NCBI RefSeq assembly: GCF_019968905.1 | Contig: NZ_CP079946.1 | Coordinates: 2,728,001-2,792,000 of the forward strand | Source: Corallococcus sp. EGB | GTDB taxonomy: Bacteria; Myxococcota; Myxococcia; Myxococcales; Myxococcaceae | Direction of reading: 5' to 3' | DNA length: 64,000 nt | Shown here: piece after piece, positions 23,211 through 28,787 of the stretch | Position numbering within the stretch: position 1 is the stretch's first letter | Layout of the letters: the number at the start of each line of letters is the position of its first letter | Notes under the pieces: model-generated | Databases searched by the model: none | Told to the model about the DNA's origin: nothing | Seen by the model: only the letters and a program-made list of their open reading frames with translations | Made by a program: the position numbers and the translations under genes

Positions 23211-23891
23211 ATGCGCAAGTCGTGGGGGTGTCTGGCCGTCGTCCTGGCCCTGTCCGCGTGTCGCAAGGACGCGACGGAAGGGGGCCCGGAAGCGGCGGGT
23301 GACGCCAGGGAGTCGGTTGCCCGGCTGGAGGGCGGGGAGGGTGGAGAGGACGGCCCCTCCGGTCAGTACACCCTGACCCAGGCCAAGCTGGAGGCCTACG
23401 TGGGCTATCAGCGCAAGATGCTGGAGGTGTACGGGTCGCTGATGCGAGGCCTGCAGGACATGGGGCCGCTGATGGACGCGGGCACGCCCCAGGCGCTGGA
23501 GAAGGCGAAGAGCGGCCTGAAGCTCATCGAGCGCAAGGCGCAGGCGGAGGCCGACGCGCGCCAGGCGGCGGGGCTGTCCACGGAGGAGGTCAACCGCATC
23601 GCGGAGGTGGTCACCGCCGTCATCAGCCAGCGGCAGATGGGCCGCACGCTCCAGTATGAGGACGAGCTCAAGAAGCTGGAGGCGCTCCAGGCCCGCATGC
23701 CGGAGGAGCAGCAGCGGGAGCTGGCGCCGCAGGTGGAGTCCATGCGCCAGCAGGTGGAGTCCTTCCAGAAGCTCCCGGAGGCGCGCCGCGAGTTCGGCGA
23801 CGCCAACGTGGACGCGGTGCTGGCGCGCGAGGCGGACCTGACGAAGAACTATCAGGACATGCTCAAGGCCTTCGCGGGCGTGCGGCGGTAG
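23211..23891 (+). CDS. Coiled-coil lipoprotein of unknown function
   Basis: 226 residues from ATG 23211 with a good GGGAGGTG ribosome site; the frame is open upstream to 23091 but the signal sequence starts here. The lipobox LSAC places the lipidated Cys at residue 17 (MRKSWGCLAVVLALSAC), followed by a charged linker and a largely helical region with Gln/Glu/Lys-rich heptads (about 85-215). No enzymatic motif is seen. The residue after Cys is Arg, so the usual inner-membrane retention Asp is absent and outer-membrane location is likely. Divergent from sixA, convergent with the large flavoprotein (stops directly adjacent). Confidence 0.85.
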   Translation: MRKSWGCLAVVLALSACRKDATEGGPEAAGDARESVARLEGGEGGEDGPSGQYTLTQAKLEAYVGYQRKMLEVYGSLMRGLQDMGPLMDAGTPQALEKAKSGLKLIERKAQAEADARQAAGLSTEEVNRIAEVVTAVISQRQMGRTLQYEDELKKLEALQARMPEEQQRELAPQVESMRQQVESFQKLPEARREFGDANVDAVLAREADLTKNYQDMLKAFAGVRR

Positions 23892-26800
23892 CTACACCCG
23901 CCTGAGGTGCGGGGCCTTCTTGAGCAGCTGCGCGAGGAAGGTGTCGCCCTGCTTCTCCAGCACCGTGTTGCCCCGCAGGCGCTGGTTGAGGCTGACGAAG
24001 TCCACGTGGTCCAGCCGCTGGTCCTGGTTGTAACAGGAGAAGACCCACGTCTCCTTGCCGGTGACGGGGTCCACGTGGCGCTGGAGGCACTGGGCGCAGA
24101 TCTCCTTCATCATGCACTGCATGGGGGAGTTGATGGACCCGATGGCCTCGTGGCCCGGCTTGAGGAACGGCTGGAGCACCCCGTGCCGCGCCTCCGCCAC
24201 CGCGCGCATCATCCGGTCCGAGCCGATGGCGATGATGCGGTCCACCTCGCTCAGGGAGATGACGGGCGTTACGCCCAGCGTCCCTCGTGCGTACGCCACC
24301 ATGGCCTGCACCACGTTGCCCCGGAAGGCCGCGTCCTGCGGGCGGCGCACGTCCAGCACGTCCCCGGAGTCCACGGACCAGATGACCTGGTCGGTGCCGG
24401 CTTCAATCTCATCCTGCTTGAACGCGTCCGACTTCAACCGGTAGCCCGCGAAGTACACCACGCGGCAGCCCGCCGCCTTGAGCGAGCGCGCGATGGAGAA
24501 GAGCACCGCGTTGCCCAGGCCGCCGCCCACCAGCACCACCGTCTCGTGGTGGCCAATCTCCGTGGGCGCGCCCGTGGGGCCCATCAGCACGACGGGCTCG
24601 CCGGGCCGGAGCGCCGCGCACAGGCGCGAGGATGAGCCCATCTCCAGCACGATGGTGCCCATCAGCCCCTGCGCCTTGTCCACCCACGCGCCCGTGAGGG
24701 CCAGGCCCTCCATGGTGAGGCGCACGCCGTCCACGAGCGGCGCGTTCCGCTCGAAGTTCTGGAGCCGGTAGAACTGGCCGGGGGAGAAGTGGCTGGCGGC
24801 GAAGGGCGCCTTCACCACCACCTCCACGATGGTCGGCGTGAGCCGGTTCACTCCGACGACCGTGGCGAGGAGCGCCTCGTCCAGCTTCGCGAAGTGGGCG
24901 GCGCGCTTCGCCTCGCGCACCTCCAGAGCTGCCGTGTCGTGGAGGTCCAGGGCGGCCACCTCCTTCGCGAACAGGCGCACCACCTCCGGGTGGCCGTCCT
25001 TCGCGCTGGCCATGGCCTTCACCACGTTGCCCGCGTAGGTCGGGTGGTTGTCGCCGTAGAAGGACACGAAGTGGCCGTCGCGCTGGTAGGACGTGAAGAA
25101 GCCCACCTTCGCTTCGGGGTCCTCCTTCGCCTCCACGGGCTGGAGCTGGAAGCCGCCGCCGTCCTCCACCAGCTCGTGGCCCTGGAAGTACTCGTTCGCT
25201 TCGTCGAGCCGGAAGGTGCCCGGGTATTCCTTCTCATATGTGACGTTGGGGGACGTGCCCGCGGCCACGCAGACCGTCTTCGCCGGCAGCTCGAAGAACT
25301 GGCCGCTTCCCTTGAGCTTGCCGTCCACCGTCACCATGCGCTCGAAGCGGATGGCGCGCACCGCGCCGGTGTCGTCCGGCAGCGCCTCCGTGGGGCTCAT
25401 CCGTTCGATGAAGCGGATGCCCTCCTCCAGAGCCTTGGACACCTCTTCGTGGTTGAGGCGGTAGGCGGGGGACTCCGTGAGGCCCCGGCGGTACACCAGG
25501 CTCACGCCGCCCCAGGCGCGCACCAGGTGGATGAAGTCCGGGGCTCGGCCTTCTTCCTGGGCCTTCTGGCGCTCTGCCCGGATGGCGCGGCCGTGCTCCA
25601 GGAAGGTCTGGTAGGTGGCGCGCTCCTCGGCGTCCAGGCGCGCGAGGAGGGCGGCTTCACTCCCGTCCGCCACCAGCTTCTCGTGGCGCTCCAGCGTCTT
25701 CTCCACCTGCACCGGGTAGTACGCCATCAGCTCCGTGGCGGTGTCGATGCCGGTGAGCCCACCGCCGATGACGATGGCTGGCAGCTGCACCTGGAGGTTC
25801 GCCAGCGAATCGCGCTTGAAGGCGCCGGTGAGCTGCAGCGCCATCAGGAAGTCGGACGCCTTGCGGATGCCCCGGATGAGGTTGTTCTTCATCCCGATGA
25901 GGGTGGGGCGGCCCGCTCCCGCGGCGATGGCCACGTGGTCGAAGCCCAACGCCCACGCGTCCTCCACGGTCAGCGTGCCGCCGAAGCGGATGCCACCGTA
26001 GATGCGCAGGCCCTCGCGGCGCGCGAGCGTCAGGTGGATGAGCGTGAGGAAGTTCTTGTCCCAGCGCACGGTGATTCCGTACTCGGACACGCCGCCGAAG
26101 CCCTCCAGCACGCGCTCGTCCAGCTCTCGCGTGAGGGCGCGCCAGTCGCGGATGGGCTGGAGCGCGTGGCCGTTGCGGCCCACGAGCGCGTCCGGGAACG
26201 GCTCGATCTTGAGCCCGTCCACGCCCGTGACGGCGAAGCCTTCGTTGAGCAGGTAGTGCGCCAGCGTGTAGCCGGCGGGGCCCATGCCCACCACCAGCAC
26301 GTTGCGGCCCACGTAGGGCAGGGCGTACGGGCGGCGGACGTTGAGCGGATTCCAGCGCGTGAGCAGGCCGTAGATCTCGAAGCCCCACGGCAGGTCCAGC
26401 ACGTCGGTGAGCGTGGCGGTCTCCGCCAGTGGGATGTTCACCGGCTCCTGCTTCTGGAAGATGCAGGCCTTCATGCAGTCGTTGCAGATGCGGTGGCCGG
26501 TGCCCGGACACATGGGGTTGTCCAGCGTCACCATGGCCAGCGCGGCCACGGCGTCTCCCTCGCGCTTGAGCGCGTGTGCCTCGGAGATGCGCTCGTCCAA
26601 GGGGCAGCCGGTGAGCGGGATGCCCAGCGGGTTCTTCTTGAACGAGTGCCCCTCCGCCACCGGATCCTTCGCGGGGAAGCCCTTGCTGCACGAGTCCTTC
26701 TGCCGCTCGTGGCAGAGGACGCAGTAGTCCACCTCGTTCATCACGTCGCGCGAGGTGCCCCGGCGGTCGGTGAGCTTGAAACCGTCGCGGTGGCGCAGGT

Positions 26801-27665
26801 GGTGCTCCAGGCCCTCCGTCATCTCCTCCATCCGGGCGTCCGGGCGCTGCAACTGCACCAGCTGGTCGAACACCAGGGGCTTGGGCAGCCGCAGCGTGGG
26901 CCAGGTGTGGAAGAGGGCCCTGGTCTCCGGATGCAGCGCGCGGGCGTACGTCCACCGGTCCGCCAGCGACAGCAGCGCGCGCACGGACTGGAGCTCCGCC
27001 GCGTCATCGCCTCGGGTCACCAAGCTGGAGCCGAACGCCTCCAGGCCCTCGCGCGTGCCTGTGAGCGCGGTGCGCAGGGTGGCCCAGCGCTCTCGCAGGG
27101 CAGGGGCGCGCTCTTGTTGCCCGGGGGGCAGGTTGCCGGTGAACAGCCGCTCCAGGTCGAGCAGCGTGAGGATGGACTCCGCGAGTCCTCGCTCCAGGTC
27201 GCCGTGCGCGAGCGCATCCGGGAAGCCCAACCGCATGAGCAGGCGCATGCGCGCGTCCAGCGACGGGAACTCCGCGAGCGTCGGGCGGTCCTGCGCGCCC
27301 TTCTTGAAGACGCGGCGTGTGACGAACTCGCGCTTGAAGTCGAAGAGGGGCAGCTCCGCGCGCAGGTGGCGCGACAGTCGCTCGGACTCCGGGGTGATGC
27401 CGAAGAGCGTGGCGACGAAGCGCGAGACATGCCGGGCCACCTGGATGAGCAGGTCGGATGCGGCCGGGCCCGAAAGGTGGGCGCCGCCGGATTGACGGTA
27501 GGTGTCGAACGTCTGGAACAGGCCGGGTGCGTCGGCCTGGAGCCGAGCGTCGAAGCGCTCTGTCAGCCGGCGAAGTCCAGAGGGGCGATACAGGTCTTCA
27601 AAAGTGAACCCGGGGAGCCCCAGGTGGAGCGTGGGAGCGGGGGCGGAGTCGTTCAGGGCGCGCAT
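23892..27665 (-). CDS. Fused GltD/NfnB-like and FNR/NfnA-like flavoprotein (1257 residues)
   Basis: From ATG 27665 the protein is 1257 residues; the frame is open to 27788 without conserved features. Order: residues 1-310, helical domain I do not recognise; 315-401, eight cysteines in two groups (C315, C318, C326, C354; C386, C394, C397, C401) aligned with the two [4Fe-4S] sites of GltD/NfnB; about 455-900, FAD/NAD(P) pyridine nucleotide oxidoreductase (VVGMGPAGY at 458-466, GGGLTGIDTA later); about 960-1190, ferredoxin-NADP reductase fold (FSPGQFYRL, VLVGGGLGNAVLFSIA); about 1200-1235, a PyrK/NfnA-type [2Fe-2S] site (CMMKEICAQC...C). This is the cofactor set of NADH-dependent ferredoxin:NADP oxidoreductase (NfnAB/SudAB) in one chain. 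Electron bifurcation is a hypothesis; the fold assignments are firmer. Monocistronic, divergent from the methyltransferase at 27852. Confidence 0.85.
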   Translation of the reverse strand: MRALNDSAPAPTLHLGLPGFTFEDLYRPSGLRRLTERFDARLQADAPGLFQTFDTYRQSGGAHLSGPAASDLLIQVARHVSRFVATLFGITPESERLSRHLRAELPLFDFKREFVTRRVFKKGAQDRPTLAEFPSLDARMRLLMRLGFPDALAHGDLERGLAESILTLLDLERLFTGNLPPGQQERAPALRERWATLRTALTGTREGLEAFGSSLVTRGDDAAELQSVRALLSLADRWTYARALHPETRALFHTWPTLRLPKPLVFDQLVQLQRPDARMEEMTEGLEHHLRHRDGFKLTDRRGTSRDVMNEVDYCVLCHERQKDSCSKGFPAKDPVAEGHSFKKNPLGIPLTGCPLDERISEAHALKREGDAVAALAMVTLDNPMCPGTGHRICNDCMKACIFQKQEPVNIPLAETATLTDVLDLPWGFEIYGLLTRWNPLNVRRPYALPYVGRNVLVVGMGPAGYTLAHYLLNEGFAVTGVDGLKIEPFPDALVGRNGHALQPIRDWRALTRELDERVLEGFGGVSEYGITVRWDKNFLTLIHLTLARREGLRIYGGIRFGGTLTVEDAWALGFDHVAIAAGAGRPTLIGMKNNLIRGIRKASDFLMALQLTGAFKRDSLANLQVQLPAIVIGGGLTGIDTATELMAYYPVQVEKTLERHEKLVADGSEAALLARLDAEERATYQTFLEHGRAIRAERQKAQEEGRAPDFIHLVRAWGGVSLVYRRGLTESPAYRLNHEEVSKALEEGIRFIERMSPTEALPDDTGAVRAIRFERMVTVDGKLKGSGQFFELPAKTVCVAAGTSPNVTYEKEYPGTFRLDEANEYFQGHELVEDGGGFQLQPVEAKEDPEAKVGFFTSYQRDGHFVSFYGDNHPTYAGNVVKAMASAKDGHPEVVRLFAKEVAALDLHDTAALEVREAKRAAHFAKLDEALLATVVGVNRLTPTIVEVVVKAPFAASHFSPGQFYRLQNFERNAPLVDGVRLTMEGLALTGAWVDKAQGLMGTIVLEMGSSSRLCAALRPGEPVVLMGPTGAPTEIGHHETVVLVGGGLGNAVLFSIARSLKAAGCRVVYFAGYRLKSDAFKQDEIEAGTDQVIWSVDSGDVLDVRRPQDAAFRGNVVQAMVAYARGTLGVTPVISLSEVDRIIAIGSDRMMRAVAEARHGVLQPFLKPGHEAIGSINSPMQCMMKEICAQCLQRHVDPVTGKETWVFSCYNQDQRLDHVDFVSLNQRLRGNTVLEKQGDTFLAQLLKKAPHLRRV

Positions 27666-27851
27666 GTCACGGGGCTTCCGGAAGGTGGACCCGGGGCGGC
27701 GGTCCAGAGGGGGGGCCTGTTGTCGCGGCGTGTCGCTTGGGGGCAGGGAGCTTAGGGCTTGGACGCCGCTCCGTGCGATGGACGCCATGGGCCAGATGGG
27801 TTCCGGCCGACGTATTGAGGCGGTGCGCTCCAGCGGCTACGGTGCGCCGCC

Positions 27852-28787
27852 ATGATGGATAACGCCGCCCGCCGAGCCTCCGAACCCCGCCTGGCCCCCG
27901 TGCCGGACGCCTGCTACCTGTGCAAGAGCAGGCGCTTGCGGCTGCGCCACCAGGCGCGCGGTGGGAGTTCGCCCCAGGGCGCGGCGGCCTACAACTGCAC
28001 GTCCTTCGGCCACCGGAGCCACCCGCCCATCTGGGGCTGCGAGGACTGCGGGATGCTGTTCCAGTGGCCCCTGCAGTCCCCGGACGCGCTGCTCCAGGCG
28101 TATCAGGACGTGGAGGATCCGCTCTACGTCGCGGAGAAGGACAACCGCTACCACACCTTCCGCCGCGTGCTGCGCGAGCTGGGCGCGGCCCAGGGCCGCA
28201 CGCTGCTGGATGTGGGGGCCTACTGCGGCTACTTCCTGGACGTGGCGCGCGAGGCGGGCTTCCGCCCGGAGGGATTGGAGCTGTCGCGCTGGGCCGCCGG
28301 CAACGCGCGGAGCCTGGGCTTCACGGTGCACGGCATCCCCTTGCGCGAGCTGGCGGCGAAGGGGCACCAGTACGACGTGGTGACGCTGTGGGACGTGGTG
28401 GAGCACTTCGCGGATCCGCGCGAGGAGCTCAAGGCGGCGTTCAAGCTGGTGCGCCCCGGCGGCCGCATCTACCTGTCCACCATCGACGCGGGCAGCCTGC
28501 TGGCGCGGCTGATGGGCGGGCAGTGGCCGTGGCTGATGGACATGCACCTCTTCTATTTCGGCCGCCGCACCCTGGCGATGCTGCTGGAGGAGGTGGGCTT
28601 GCGCGTCACGGACGTCCGGACGTACACGCACATCATCTCCGCGGACTACCTGCTGCGGAAGGTGGGGGCGAGCTTCACGCCCTCGGCGCCGGTGCTGGAG
28701 CTGGTGCGCCGGGGCGTGCCGTCCAACTGGTCCATCCCGTTCAACCTGGGCGACAACATGCTGATGGCCGCCGAGCGGCCCCTCTGA
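27852..28787 (+). CDS. SAM-dependent methyltransferase with N-terminal zinc ribbon
   Basis: 311 residues, start ATG 27852 (a second ATG follows). Two CxxC pairs (C21/C24 and C63/C66) form a probable zinc ribbon, followed by a class I methyltransferase domain: LLDVGAYCGYFLDVA (about 118-132), acidic post-II Glu in LELSRW, YDVVTLWDVVEHFADP and LVRPGGRIYLST. This architecture (UbiG/COG2227 type) is common among methyltransferases of polysaccharide and natural product clusters that act on sugar or lipid-linked glycans. The next gene, a membrane glycosyltransferase-like protein, starts 17 bases downstream, so the pair is probably an operon. Confidence 0.88.
   Translation: MMDNAARRASEPRLAPVPDACYLCKSRRLRLRHQARGGSSPQGAAAYNCTSFGHRSHPPIWGCEDCGMLFQWPLQSPDALLQAYQDVEDPLYVAEKDNRYHTFRRVLRELGAAQGRTLLDVGAYCGYFLDVAREAGFRPEGLELSRWAAGNARSLGFTVHGIPLRELAAKGHQYDVVTLWDVVEHFADPREELKAAFKLVRPGGRIYLSTIDAGSLLARLMGGQWPWLMDMHLFYFGRRTLAMLLEEVGLRVTDVRTYTHIISADYLLRKVGASFTPSAPVLELVRRGVPSNWSIPFNLGDNMLMAAERPL

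Follow-up and report, generated by a model that had tools for sequence, protein, structure and literature searches.

The closest described systems are the NADH-dependent ferredoxin:NADP oxidoreductases (NfnAB or NfnSL), as represented by those of Pyrococcus furiosus (PDB: 5jca) and Thermotoga maritima (PDB: 4ylf). The original prediction for the gene considered here, made from the DNA letters alone, held these to be normally two separate subunits, which is incomplete given that the accessible part of a 2019 review lists four arrangements, three of them fused (PMC6405883). One such fused protein, AadN, is required for growth on benzoate, and its C38W variant can feed nitrogenase, according to the available portion of its description (PMC9973337). 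As far as the accessible text of this review and of a survey of 2018 goes, Nfn is nearly confined to anaerobes, and both except only a single aerobe, Koribacter (PMC6085437, PMC6405883). Here we describe a minus-strand gene (27665 to 23892) of a 64,000-nucleotide window, that is, the whole stretch of DNA analysed, positions 2,728,001 to 2,792,000 of contig NZ_CP079946.1 of Corallococcus sp. EGB. To judge by its sequence motifs and a modelled fold, the 1257-residue product is a single-chain iron-sulfur flavoprotein in which an NfnB-like part is followed by an NfnA-like part and preceded by a family-specific helical N-terminal domain. A literature search, with most subscription journals outside its reach, returned no mention of the term PRK06567, the database model that this protein matches best, and nothing that we recognised as this family in myxobacteria.

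The chain begins with the helical N-terminal domain (residues 1-290; 26796..27665, this and all following features of the gene being on the minus strand), which has no Pfam or usable solved-structure match. It is followed by two predicted [4Fe-4S] sites (residues 315-415; 26421..26723) comprising C315, C318, C326, C354, C394, C397, C401 and E415, and by an NfnB/GltD-like core for flavin adenine dinucleotide (FAD) and NADP (residues 450-885; 25011..26318) with the motifs GMGPAG, GGGLTGID and GDNHP. This core contains the Arg534 codon (26064..26066) within the stretch YGITVRWDK and, between GGGLTGID and YRR, a helical insertion in the NADP domain (about residues 648-715; 25521..25724), unaligned to the Nfn chains compared, which is a second family-specific piece. 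An NfnA/PyrK-like FAD and NAD domain (residues 932-1175; 24141..24872; motifs EGLALT, GPTGAPTEI and GGGLGNA) and a four-Cys [2Fe-2S] site (residues 1180-1212; 24030..24128; C1184-x5-C1190-x2-C1193-x17-C1211) complete the protein, the corresponding site of Nfn having an Asp and three Cys.

Among Pfam models Pyr_redox_2 alone passes its cut-off, and the NCBIfam models are led by PRK06567 (571.7 bits, below its cut-off of 1072), followed by PRK12778, PRK12775 and PRK12779, all three of which carry names of GltD/PyrK-type fusions. The best matches in a sequence search of the PDB are Nfn chains of P. furiosus (5vj7_A, 3e-17; 5jca_S, 3e-16; 5jca_L, 4e-15), and in a profile search (5vj7_A, 9e-26; 5jca_L, 2e-23; 5jca_S, 2e-19) the Nfn chains cover both halves. 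The fold was predicted from a 68-sequence alignment for a full-length homologue (L105, 1177 residues, 58% identical to the window protein), with a predicted local distance difference test score (pLDDT) of 91.6 and a predicted template-modelling score of 0.92 for the whole chain. Structural searches were run chain by chain. In VIA-align, residues 851-1172 of the homologue superimpose on Pyrococcus NfnI S (5jca_S) with Z 34.4 (277 of 279 residues, 1.8 A, 28% identity), and residues 203-823 on NfnI L (5jfc_L) with Z 28.1 (438 residues, 2.5 A, 24% identity), the same comparison giving PyrK Z 26.9 and GltD Z 26.6. In the modelled fold both halves are closest to Nfn, the margin over GltD being small (Z 1.5). 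These matches and the predicted fold support the original prediction as to the sequence of domains, the cofactor motifs and the resemblance of both halves to Nfn in fold. It had also proposed to test the Nfn-like reading by asking whether the Cys sites lie at FAD and whether the NfnA-like part has FAD and NAD sites; this was run in part, and motifs and fold came out as expected.

Conservation of the ligands was counted over 68 aligned proteins, namely the window protein and those of 67 of the 80 loci analysed. The residues C315, C318, C326, C354, C394, C397, C401, E415, R534, C1184, C1190, C1193 and C1211 are invariant in 68/68 rows, and both NAD(P)-site glycine motifs are kept. In a separate set from Pseudomonadota (18 rows, some of them fragments) the ligands agree in every row with a letter at the position, that is, in 17/18 for the [4Fe-4S] ligands and R534, and in 16/18 for the [2Fe-2S] ligands. 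The first-cluster spacing of x2, x7 and x27 (C315, C318, C326, C354) given in the original prediction is correct, and the PyrK/NfnA-type [2Fe-2S] site that it recognised is borne out by four invariant Cys (1184, 1190, 1193 and 1211). Its eight Cys in two groups are not quite right: the invariant [4Fe-4S] Cys number seven, that of the MCPGTGH stretch being variable in an 18-sequence alignment (A1), and Glu415 is probably the eighth ligand. Aligned by profile, E415 pairs with residue 126 of P. furiosus NfnL (5jca_L). In Nfn this Glu126 coordinates the proximal cluster, according to the accessible part of the source, and replacing it by Cys uncouples the two branches (PMC9503767). The GltD of Escherichia coli too has a Glu at this position (VTIGNIER), so that Glu there does not discriminate Nfn from GltD.

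The second key residue, R534, lies in a motif one residue shorter than, but aligned with, GIPEFRLPK of P. furiosus NfnL, whose Arg (201) we take to be the Nfn Arg bonded to flavin N5; this position holds Arg in 10/10 NfnB rows, whereas it is Lys in 2/2 GltD rows. The N5-bonded Arg is reported, in the accessible part of the 2019 review, to be conserved throughout Nfn (PMC6405883). As for the Arg pair of NfnB that contacts the NADP phosphate, Arg726 is present in 68/68 rows and residue 727 is Lys in 53 and Arg in 15.

Taken together with the predicted fold, this pattern suggests that the protein is probably a single-chain NAD(P)H:ferredoxin-type oxidoreductase with Nfn-like electron transfer and an acceptor that differs by lineage. 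NAD(P)H would reduce the FAD of the NfnB half, from which electrons would take two routes, one over both [4Fe-4S] clusters towards a small acceptor of low potential (a ferredoxin, for example) and one through the [2Fe-2S] cluster towards the site in the NfnA half that holds FAD and NAD. Such a protein might, in an aerobic host, pass electrons from NADPH to form reduced ferredoxin or a like donor, and/or balance NADPH and NADH, with its fast-evolving N-terminal domain docking the lineage-specific acceptor. Electron bifurcation could take place, in which case the [2Fe-2S] cluster would operate with four Cys instead of the high-potential Asp ligand.

Several observations weigh against this reading. 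The Nfn [2Fe-2S] motif DGTGMCGxC(R) becomes MQCMMKEICAQC in the window protein, in which the Asp ligand is replaced, with a one-residue offset, by Cys1184; this position is Cys in 68/68 family rows versus Asp in 10/10 NfnA rows, the latter having been chosen by a pattern permitting either residue. The motif ERxPLT (ERxPxT) at the FAD of NfnA is reduced to EGLALT, with Glu and Thr kept and Arg and Pro lost. When 16 family members were placed in a tree with rows of NfnB and GltD, they came out as a single clade (100/100) outside both, on a very long branch (4.57); the tree output warns of long branches, which leave the exact placement unsure. Clustering the neighbours of the 80 loci revealed, among the largest clusters inspected, no gene conserved across phyla, the two widest (14 and 11 loci) looking like kinases and epimerases. 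Lastly, the window's own genome has no match to the ferredoxin FdxA (DUF3470), which 14 of its 15 sampled congeners have, and no match to a sulfite or nitrite reductase or to CysJ. The family is Nfn-like but is not filed as Nfn, since the Asp ligand and the ERxPxT motif were both looked for and found to be absent. Given that the [4Fe-4S] ligands and the Arg are kept but the [2Fe-2S] Asp is replaced by Cys, the low-potential branch looks Nfn-like and the high-potential one differently tuned. As the neighbours differ by lineage and none of the linked partners is found in the window's genome, the acceptor probably varies by lineage; that genome has six matches to Fer2, the [2Fe-2S] ferredoxin domain, one of them in a 126-residue frame. 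A conserved operon across the family was rejected, there being no cross-phylum neighbour among the largest clusters from the 80 loci.

That the protein is a genuine bifurcase, with NfnAB chemistry in one chain and one FAD that oxidises NADPH and divides the electrons between NAD+ and ferredoxin, is a tentative possibility. It draws on the invariant Arg534 and Glu415 at the positions of the Nfn Arg and Glu126, on the retention of both NAD(P)-site glycine motifs and on the Nfn chains being the best fold matches. The Glu, being shared with E. coli GltD, is however not bifurcation-specific, and the Asp ligand that is said, in the accessible part of the 2019 review, to account for the Nfn [2Fe-2S] cluster having a potential of +80 mV (PMC6405883) is Cys throughout the 68 rows. 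Because of this replacement, electron bifurcation by the single-chain protein is not established, and the bifurcating activity implied by the original prediction stands unproven, the ligand said to set the high-potential branch being absent.

Comparison with the individual described systems delimits the family further. With NfnAB the window protein shares the predicted fold of both halves, the FAD/NAD half with its [2Fe-2S] cluster, the two [4Fe-4S] sites including a Glu at position 126, and the N5-type Arg; it differs in being one chain of B-A order, in its extra 290-residue N-terminal domain and NADP-domain helical insertion, in its four-Cys [2Fe-2S] site and EGLALT motif, and in a longer first-cluster loop. 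Fused Nfn of Pattern B (C. autoethanogenum type; AadN of R. palustris) is likewise a single chain with the full cofactor set, but has the order A-B, with NfnA first, and, as described, no N-terminal helical domain. Pattern C (Mobiluncus curtisii type), compared by its description, resembles the window protein in its C-terminal NfnA part; the accessible part of the review makes it about 200 residues longer than a 2,274-bp Clostridium fusion (PMC6405883), which by our own reckoning gives about 950 residues, too short for the N-terminal domain of the window protein. Pattern C is probably NCBIfam PRK12779 (944 positions), which matches the window protein at 102.8 bits, as against 571.7 for PRK06567. 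A chain with a 290-residue N-terminal domain is not among the four arrangements in the accessible part of that review. The same domain order, N-terminal domain included, is found in NCBIfam NF005128/PRK06567, 'putative bifunctional glutamate synthase subunit beta/2-polyprenylphenol hydroxylase', for which the window protein scores below the cut-off and whose name stands for no tested function. The polyprenylphenol hydroxylase part of that name was rejected as a label alone, since no hydroxylase family passes its Pfam cut-off. GltD has Lys at the Arg534 position and stands alone without an NfnA half, neither of which holds for the window protein.

The original prediction's unassigned helical domain at the N-terminus is upheld: residues 1-300 predicted alone form 13 helices (pLDDT 92.4), and the check it proposed with hidden Markov models finds no Pfam family for the domain, which is shared with the PRK06567 model. 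A profile search of the PDB gave two matches (E 0.95 and 5), Foldseek gave none in the PDB with E <= 0.001, and the best VIA-align Z was 4.9, although such weak or absent matches to solved structures are no proof of a new fold. Mean column identity is 31% in this domain (alignment A3, 68 rows) versus 71% in the C-terminal 250 residues (alignment A4, 20 rows), and none of its Cys or His residues reaches 80% conservation over the 68 rows, a pattern that fits a docking or structural rather than a redox role. By sequence the domain is family-wide: that of one homologue (L062) alone matches the N-terminal part of the PRK06567 model colinearly (5.5e-7), and two of the four domains tried matched, that of the window protein reaching just E 0.14. 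Of two further members, L169 matches positions 3-924 of the 1031 of the model and L172 positions 2-1026.

The phyletic pattern indicates that the protein is no lone oddity but belongs to a widespread uncharacterised family that includes many oxygen-respiring bacteria. A survey with the PRK06567 profile (E <= 1e-30) found the fused gene in 102 of 193 Myxococcota genomes and in none of 14 control genomes. In the window's own family (f1) it is present in 86 of the 95 genomes sampled, including genomes of 2.1-2.7 Mb (G069, G119, G146), so that the original prediction mis-scaled the matter in calling a fused version in an aerobic myxobacterium notable. A second family (f5) has the fused gene in 0/24 genomes and instead has NfnA (PRK06222) in 23/24. 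Over all Myxococcota, NfnA passes its cut-off in 40/193 genomes and co-occurs with the fused gene in 4 (G035, G147, G154, G176); 98 have the fused gene only, 36 NfnA only and 55 neither (Fisher p = 5e-10), these counts being clumped by family and not independent events. Haem-copper oxidase, tested in Myxococcota alone, is found in 100/102 fused-positive versus 70/91 fused-negative genomes. In the phylum of a Methylomagnum locus (L113 of G193), taken as Pseudomonadota, 17/398 genomes match at 1e-60, one of them of 1.4 Mb. The PRK06567 cut-off of 1072 bits is passed by 0/193 Myxococcota and 0/398 genomes of the latter phylum.

A contig scan yielded at least 559 confirmed relatives, of which 80 loci were analysed, many of them from metagenome-assembled genomes in which contamination is possible. 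These fall into nine named phyla, namely Myxococcota (37), Acidobacteriota (22), Pseudomonadota (5), Planctomycetota (4), Ignavibacteriota (4), Actinomycetota (2), and Nitrospirota, Chlorobiota and Armatimonadota (1 each), with 3 unassigned. A single one of 72,556 plasmids matches at 1e-30, pTcM1 of Acidithiobacillus caldus, and no phage record does at 1e-10. In three loci of family f5 (L138, L139, L141) an NfnA motif and a GltD-like part occupy a single open frame with NfnA first (A-B), the reverse of the arrangement in the window gene; these fusions are probably of the PRK12775 type.

That the protein serves specifically to pass electrons to siroheme sulfite (or nitrite) reductases, in place of the CysJ flavoprotein, is suggested by certain gene neighbourhoods, but as an account of the family it is unlikely. 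In one locus (G260) cysI (PRK13504, 676.8 bits, cut-off 457), a siroheme-synthesis gene, cysH, cysD and cysNC precede the fused gene, from which cysNC is separated by 2 bases. In another (G552) cysD and cysNC are followed by the fused gene, with an overlap of 4 bases, and in a third (G299) cysH, cysD and cysN (all over their cut-offs) and two regulator-looking genes precede it. Two short genes before cysH in the third locus look like the end of cysI and a DUF934 protein, with no model matching either. The sulfate-assimilation loci that end in or adjoin the fused gene lie at 2187-11446 of L169, 7112-13749 of L176 and 869-11475 of L173. Of the 17 genomes in the Pseudomonadota set that have the fused gene, 14, these three included, gave no CysJ match in a search at 1e-10; the best matches in the other three are of 513 (G311), 364 and 46 bits, all below the cut-off. 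In these CysJ-less loci the fused gene is by its position a candidate supplier of CysI, and the literature search found no paper on CysI without CysJ. In Planctomycetota, NirA/CysI-like siroheme reductase genes occur near the fused gene in three of the four loci (best model PRK09567, 258-270 bits, below its cut-off of 523), at 7082-8836 of L083, 3404-5248 of L093 and 546-2273 of L108. The gene is divergent from the fused gene at 344 bases in the first and 163 bases in the second, and lies about 7.7 kb away in the third; the fourth locus (L115) has no such gene. Against these cases, NIR_SIR is unassociated with the fused gene in the 193 Myxococcota (58/102 with the gene versus 44/91 lacking it, p = 0.25). 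In the window's genus, each of the 16 genomes sampled, that of the window among them, carries the gene and has no NIR_SIR match. Of the 13 Pseudomonadota loci examined with wide flanks, 10 have no cys gene, and the fused-positive G311 has the CysJ-like match of 513 bits. Siroheme-reductase donation, being contradicted in Myxococcota as a general role, was kept as a lineage-specific one.

A different neighbourhood occurs on pTcM1 (L051, 4728-12402), where the fused gene comes last in a series that starts with genes for a GntR regulator and an FrdA-type flavoprotein (PRK08275, 1044.9 bits), the latter somewhat similar to AprA, and continues with those for a small 4Fe-4S protein, a HEAT protein and FdxA, which lies 148 bases upstream of the fused gene. 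pTcM1 is a mobilizable plasmid, and the accessible part of the 2019 review knows of just one other plasmid-borne nfn (PMC6405883). When these neighbours were sought in 81 loci, nothing was found outside the pTcM1 locus itself. In a genome of 1.4 Mb, too, FdxA and the fused gene are about 3 kb apart, and FdxA is present in 96/102 fused-positive versus 42/91 fused-negative Myxococcota, counts that are clumped by family. FdxA was rejected as a general partner on account of this clumping and of its absence from the matches in the window's own genome. Two lineage-bound arrangements were also observed: a short gene, presumably YggX-like, directly upstream on the same strand at 26-91 bases (L072, L075, L076, L085, L096), and a gene that we take to be ThiG-like on the opposite strand, no more than about 3 kb upstream (L068, L091, L105, L116, L120, L130, five of them labelled Acidobacteria).

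An NADH:NADP transhydrogenase without a ferredoxin partner, whose [4Fe-4S] clusters would be internal only, is quite improbable: two pyridine-nucleotide sites and two flavins linked through one [2Fe-2S] cluster would be enough for this activity, but the two [4Fe-4S] sites are invariant across rows of nine phyla, and a ferredoxin gene adjoins the fused gene in one genome and lies within 3 kb of it in another. A role as the small (beta) subunit of glutamate synthase or with another GltB-type partner, as the database name and the GltD-like NfnB half would have it, is highly improbable and was rejected, since the window's genome encodes a separate GltD-like protein (1092070-1093461), position 534 shows the Lys/Arg difference, and the tree separates both groups with support of 100/98 and 100/100.

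The gene itself, identified by its reading frame, homologue matches and the A1 alignment, occupies 23892..27665 on the minus strand, with 1257 codons from an ATG to the stop at 23892. The original prediction had the interval and length right and gave no strand; the plus-strand frame over the same interval is interrupted by an internal stop. Matches in 28 of the 39 genomes searched (its own included), with a best E of 0, and long invariant blocks over the 18 sequences of A1 place the gene beyond chance. An alternative upstream ATG would give 1298 residues and is an unlikely start, since in the closest relatives the frame ahead of the corresponding Met can be open for a very short stretch, of 12 codons in the case of L002. 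Third-position G+C is 0.94 in the minus-strand frame, and the neighbours are alike. A 988-codon open frame on the plus strand (24789-27755), antisense to the flavoprotein gene, is taken as its shadow, arising from high G+C. The window's genome is a single contig of 9.43 Mb. At about 18.6-22.0 kb the window encodes ribosomal protein S2, EF-Ts, an amino-acid-kinase-family protein (probably PyrH) and ribosome recycling factor, followed by a histidine-phosphatase-like gene and a gene without a Pfam match that ends at 23891; a divergent methyltransferase gene starts at 27852. The flavoprotein gene is standalone, with no functional link seen to its neighbours in the window.

Fused Nfn was already known, but the N-terminally extended family of B-A order is widespread and unstudied. 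Whereas the surveys, in their accessible parts, have Nfn nearly confined to anaerobes with one aerobe, the Nfn cofactor set is carried by this family at hundreds of loci (at least 559). Rather doubtful as yet is a broader proposition, that the family represents an overlooked major low-potential electron route in aerobes, in which a single-chain, possibly bifurcating NADPH:ferredoxin oxidoreductase would stand in for Nfn. With a differently tuned [2Fe-2S] branch, it would be plugged into siroheme sulfite/nitrite reductases in some Pseudomonadota and Planctomycetota, or into FdxA-linked flavoenzymes in Acidithiobacillus, via a fast-evolving docking domain without a solved-structure match. The family keeps the Arg and the Glu ligand but naturally carries Cys for Asp where the high-potential branch has its first acceptor, and so offers a test case for the features that underlie flavin bifurcation. 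The family also bears on what feeds CysI where CysJ is missing, and on how aerobes such as myxobacteria make low-potential reduced ferredoxin.

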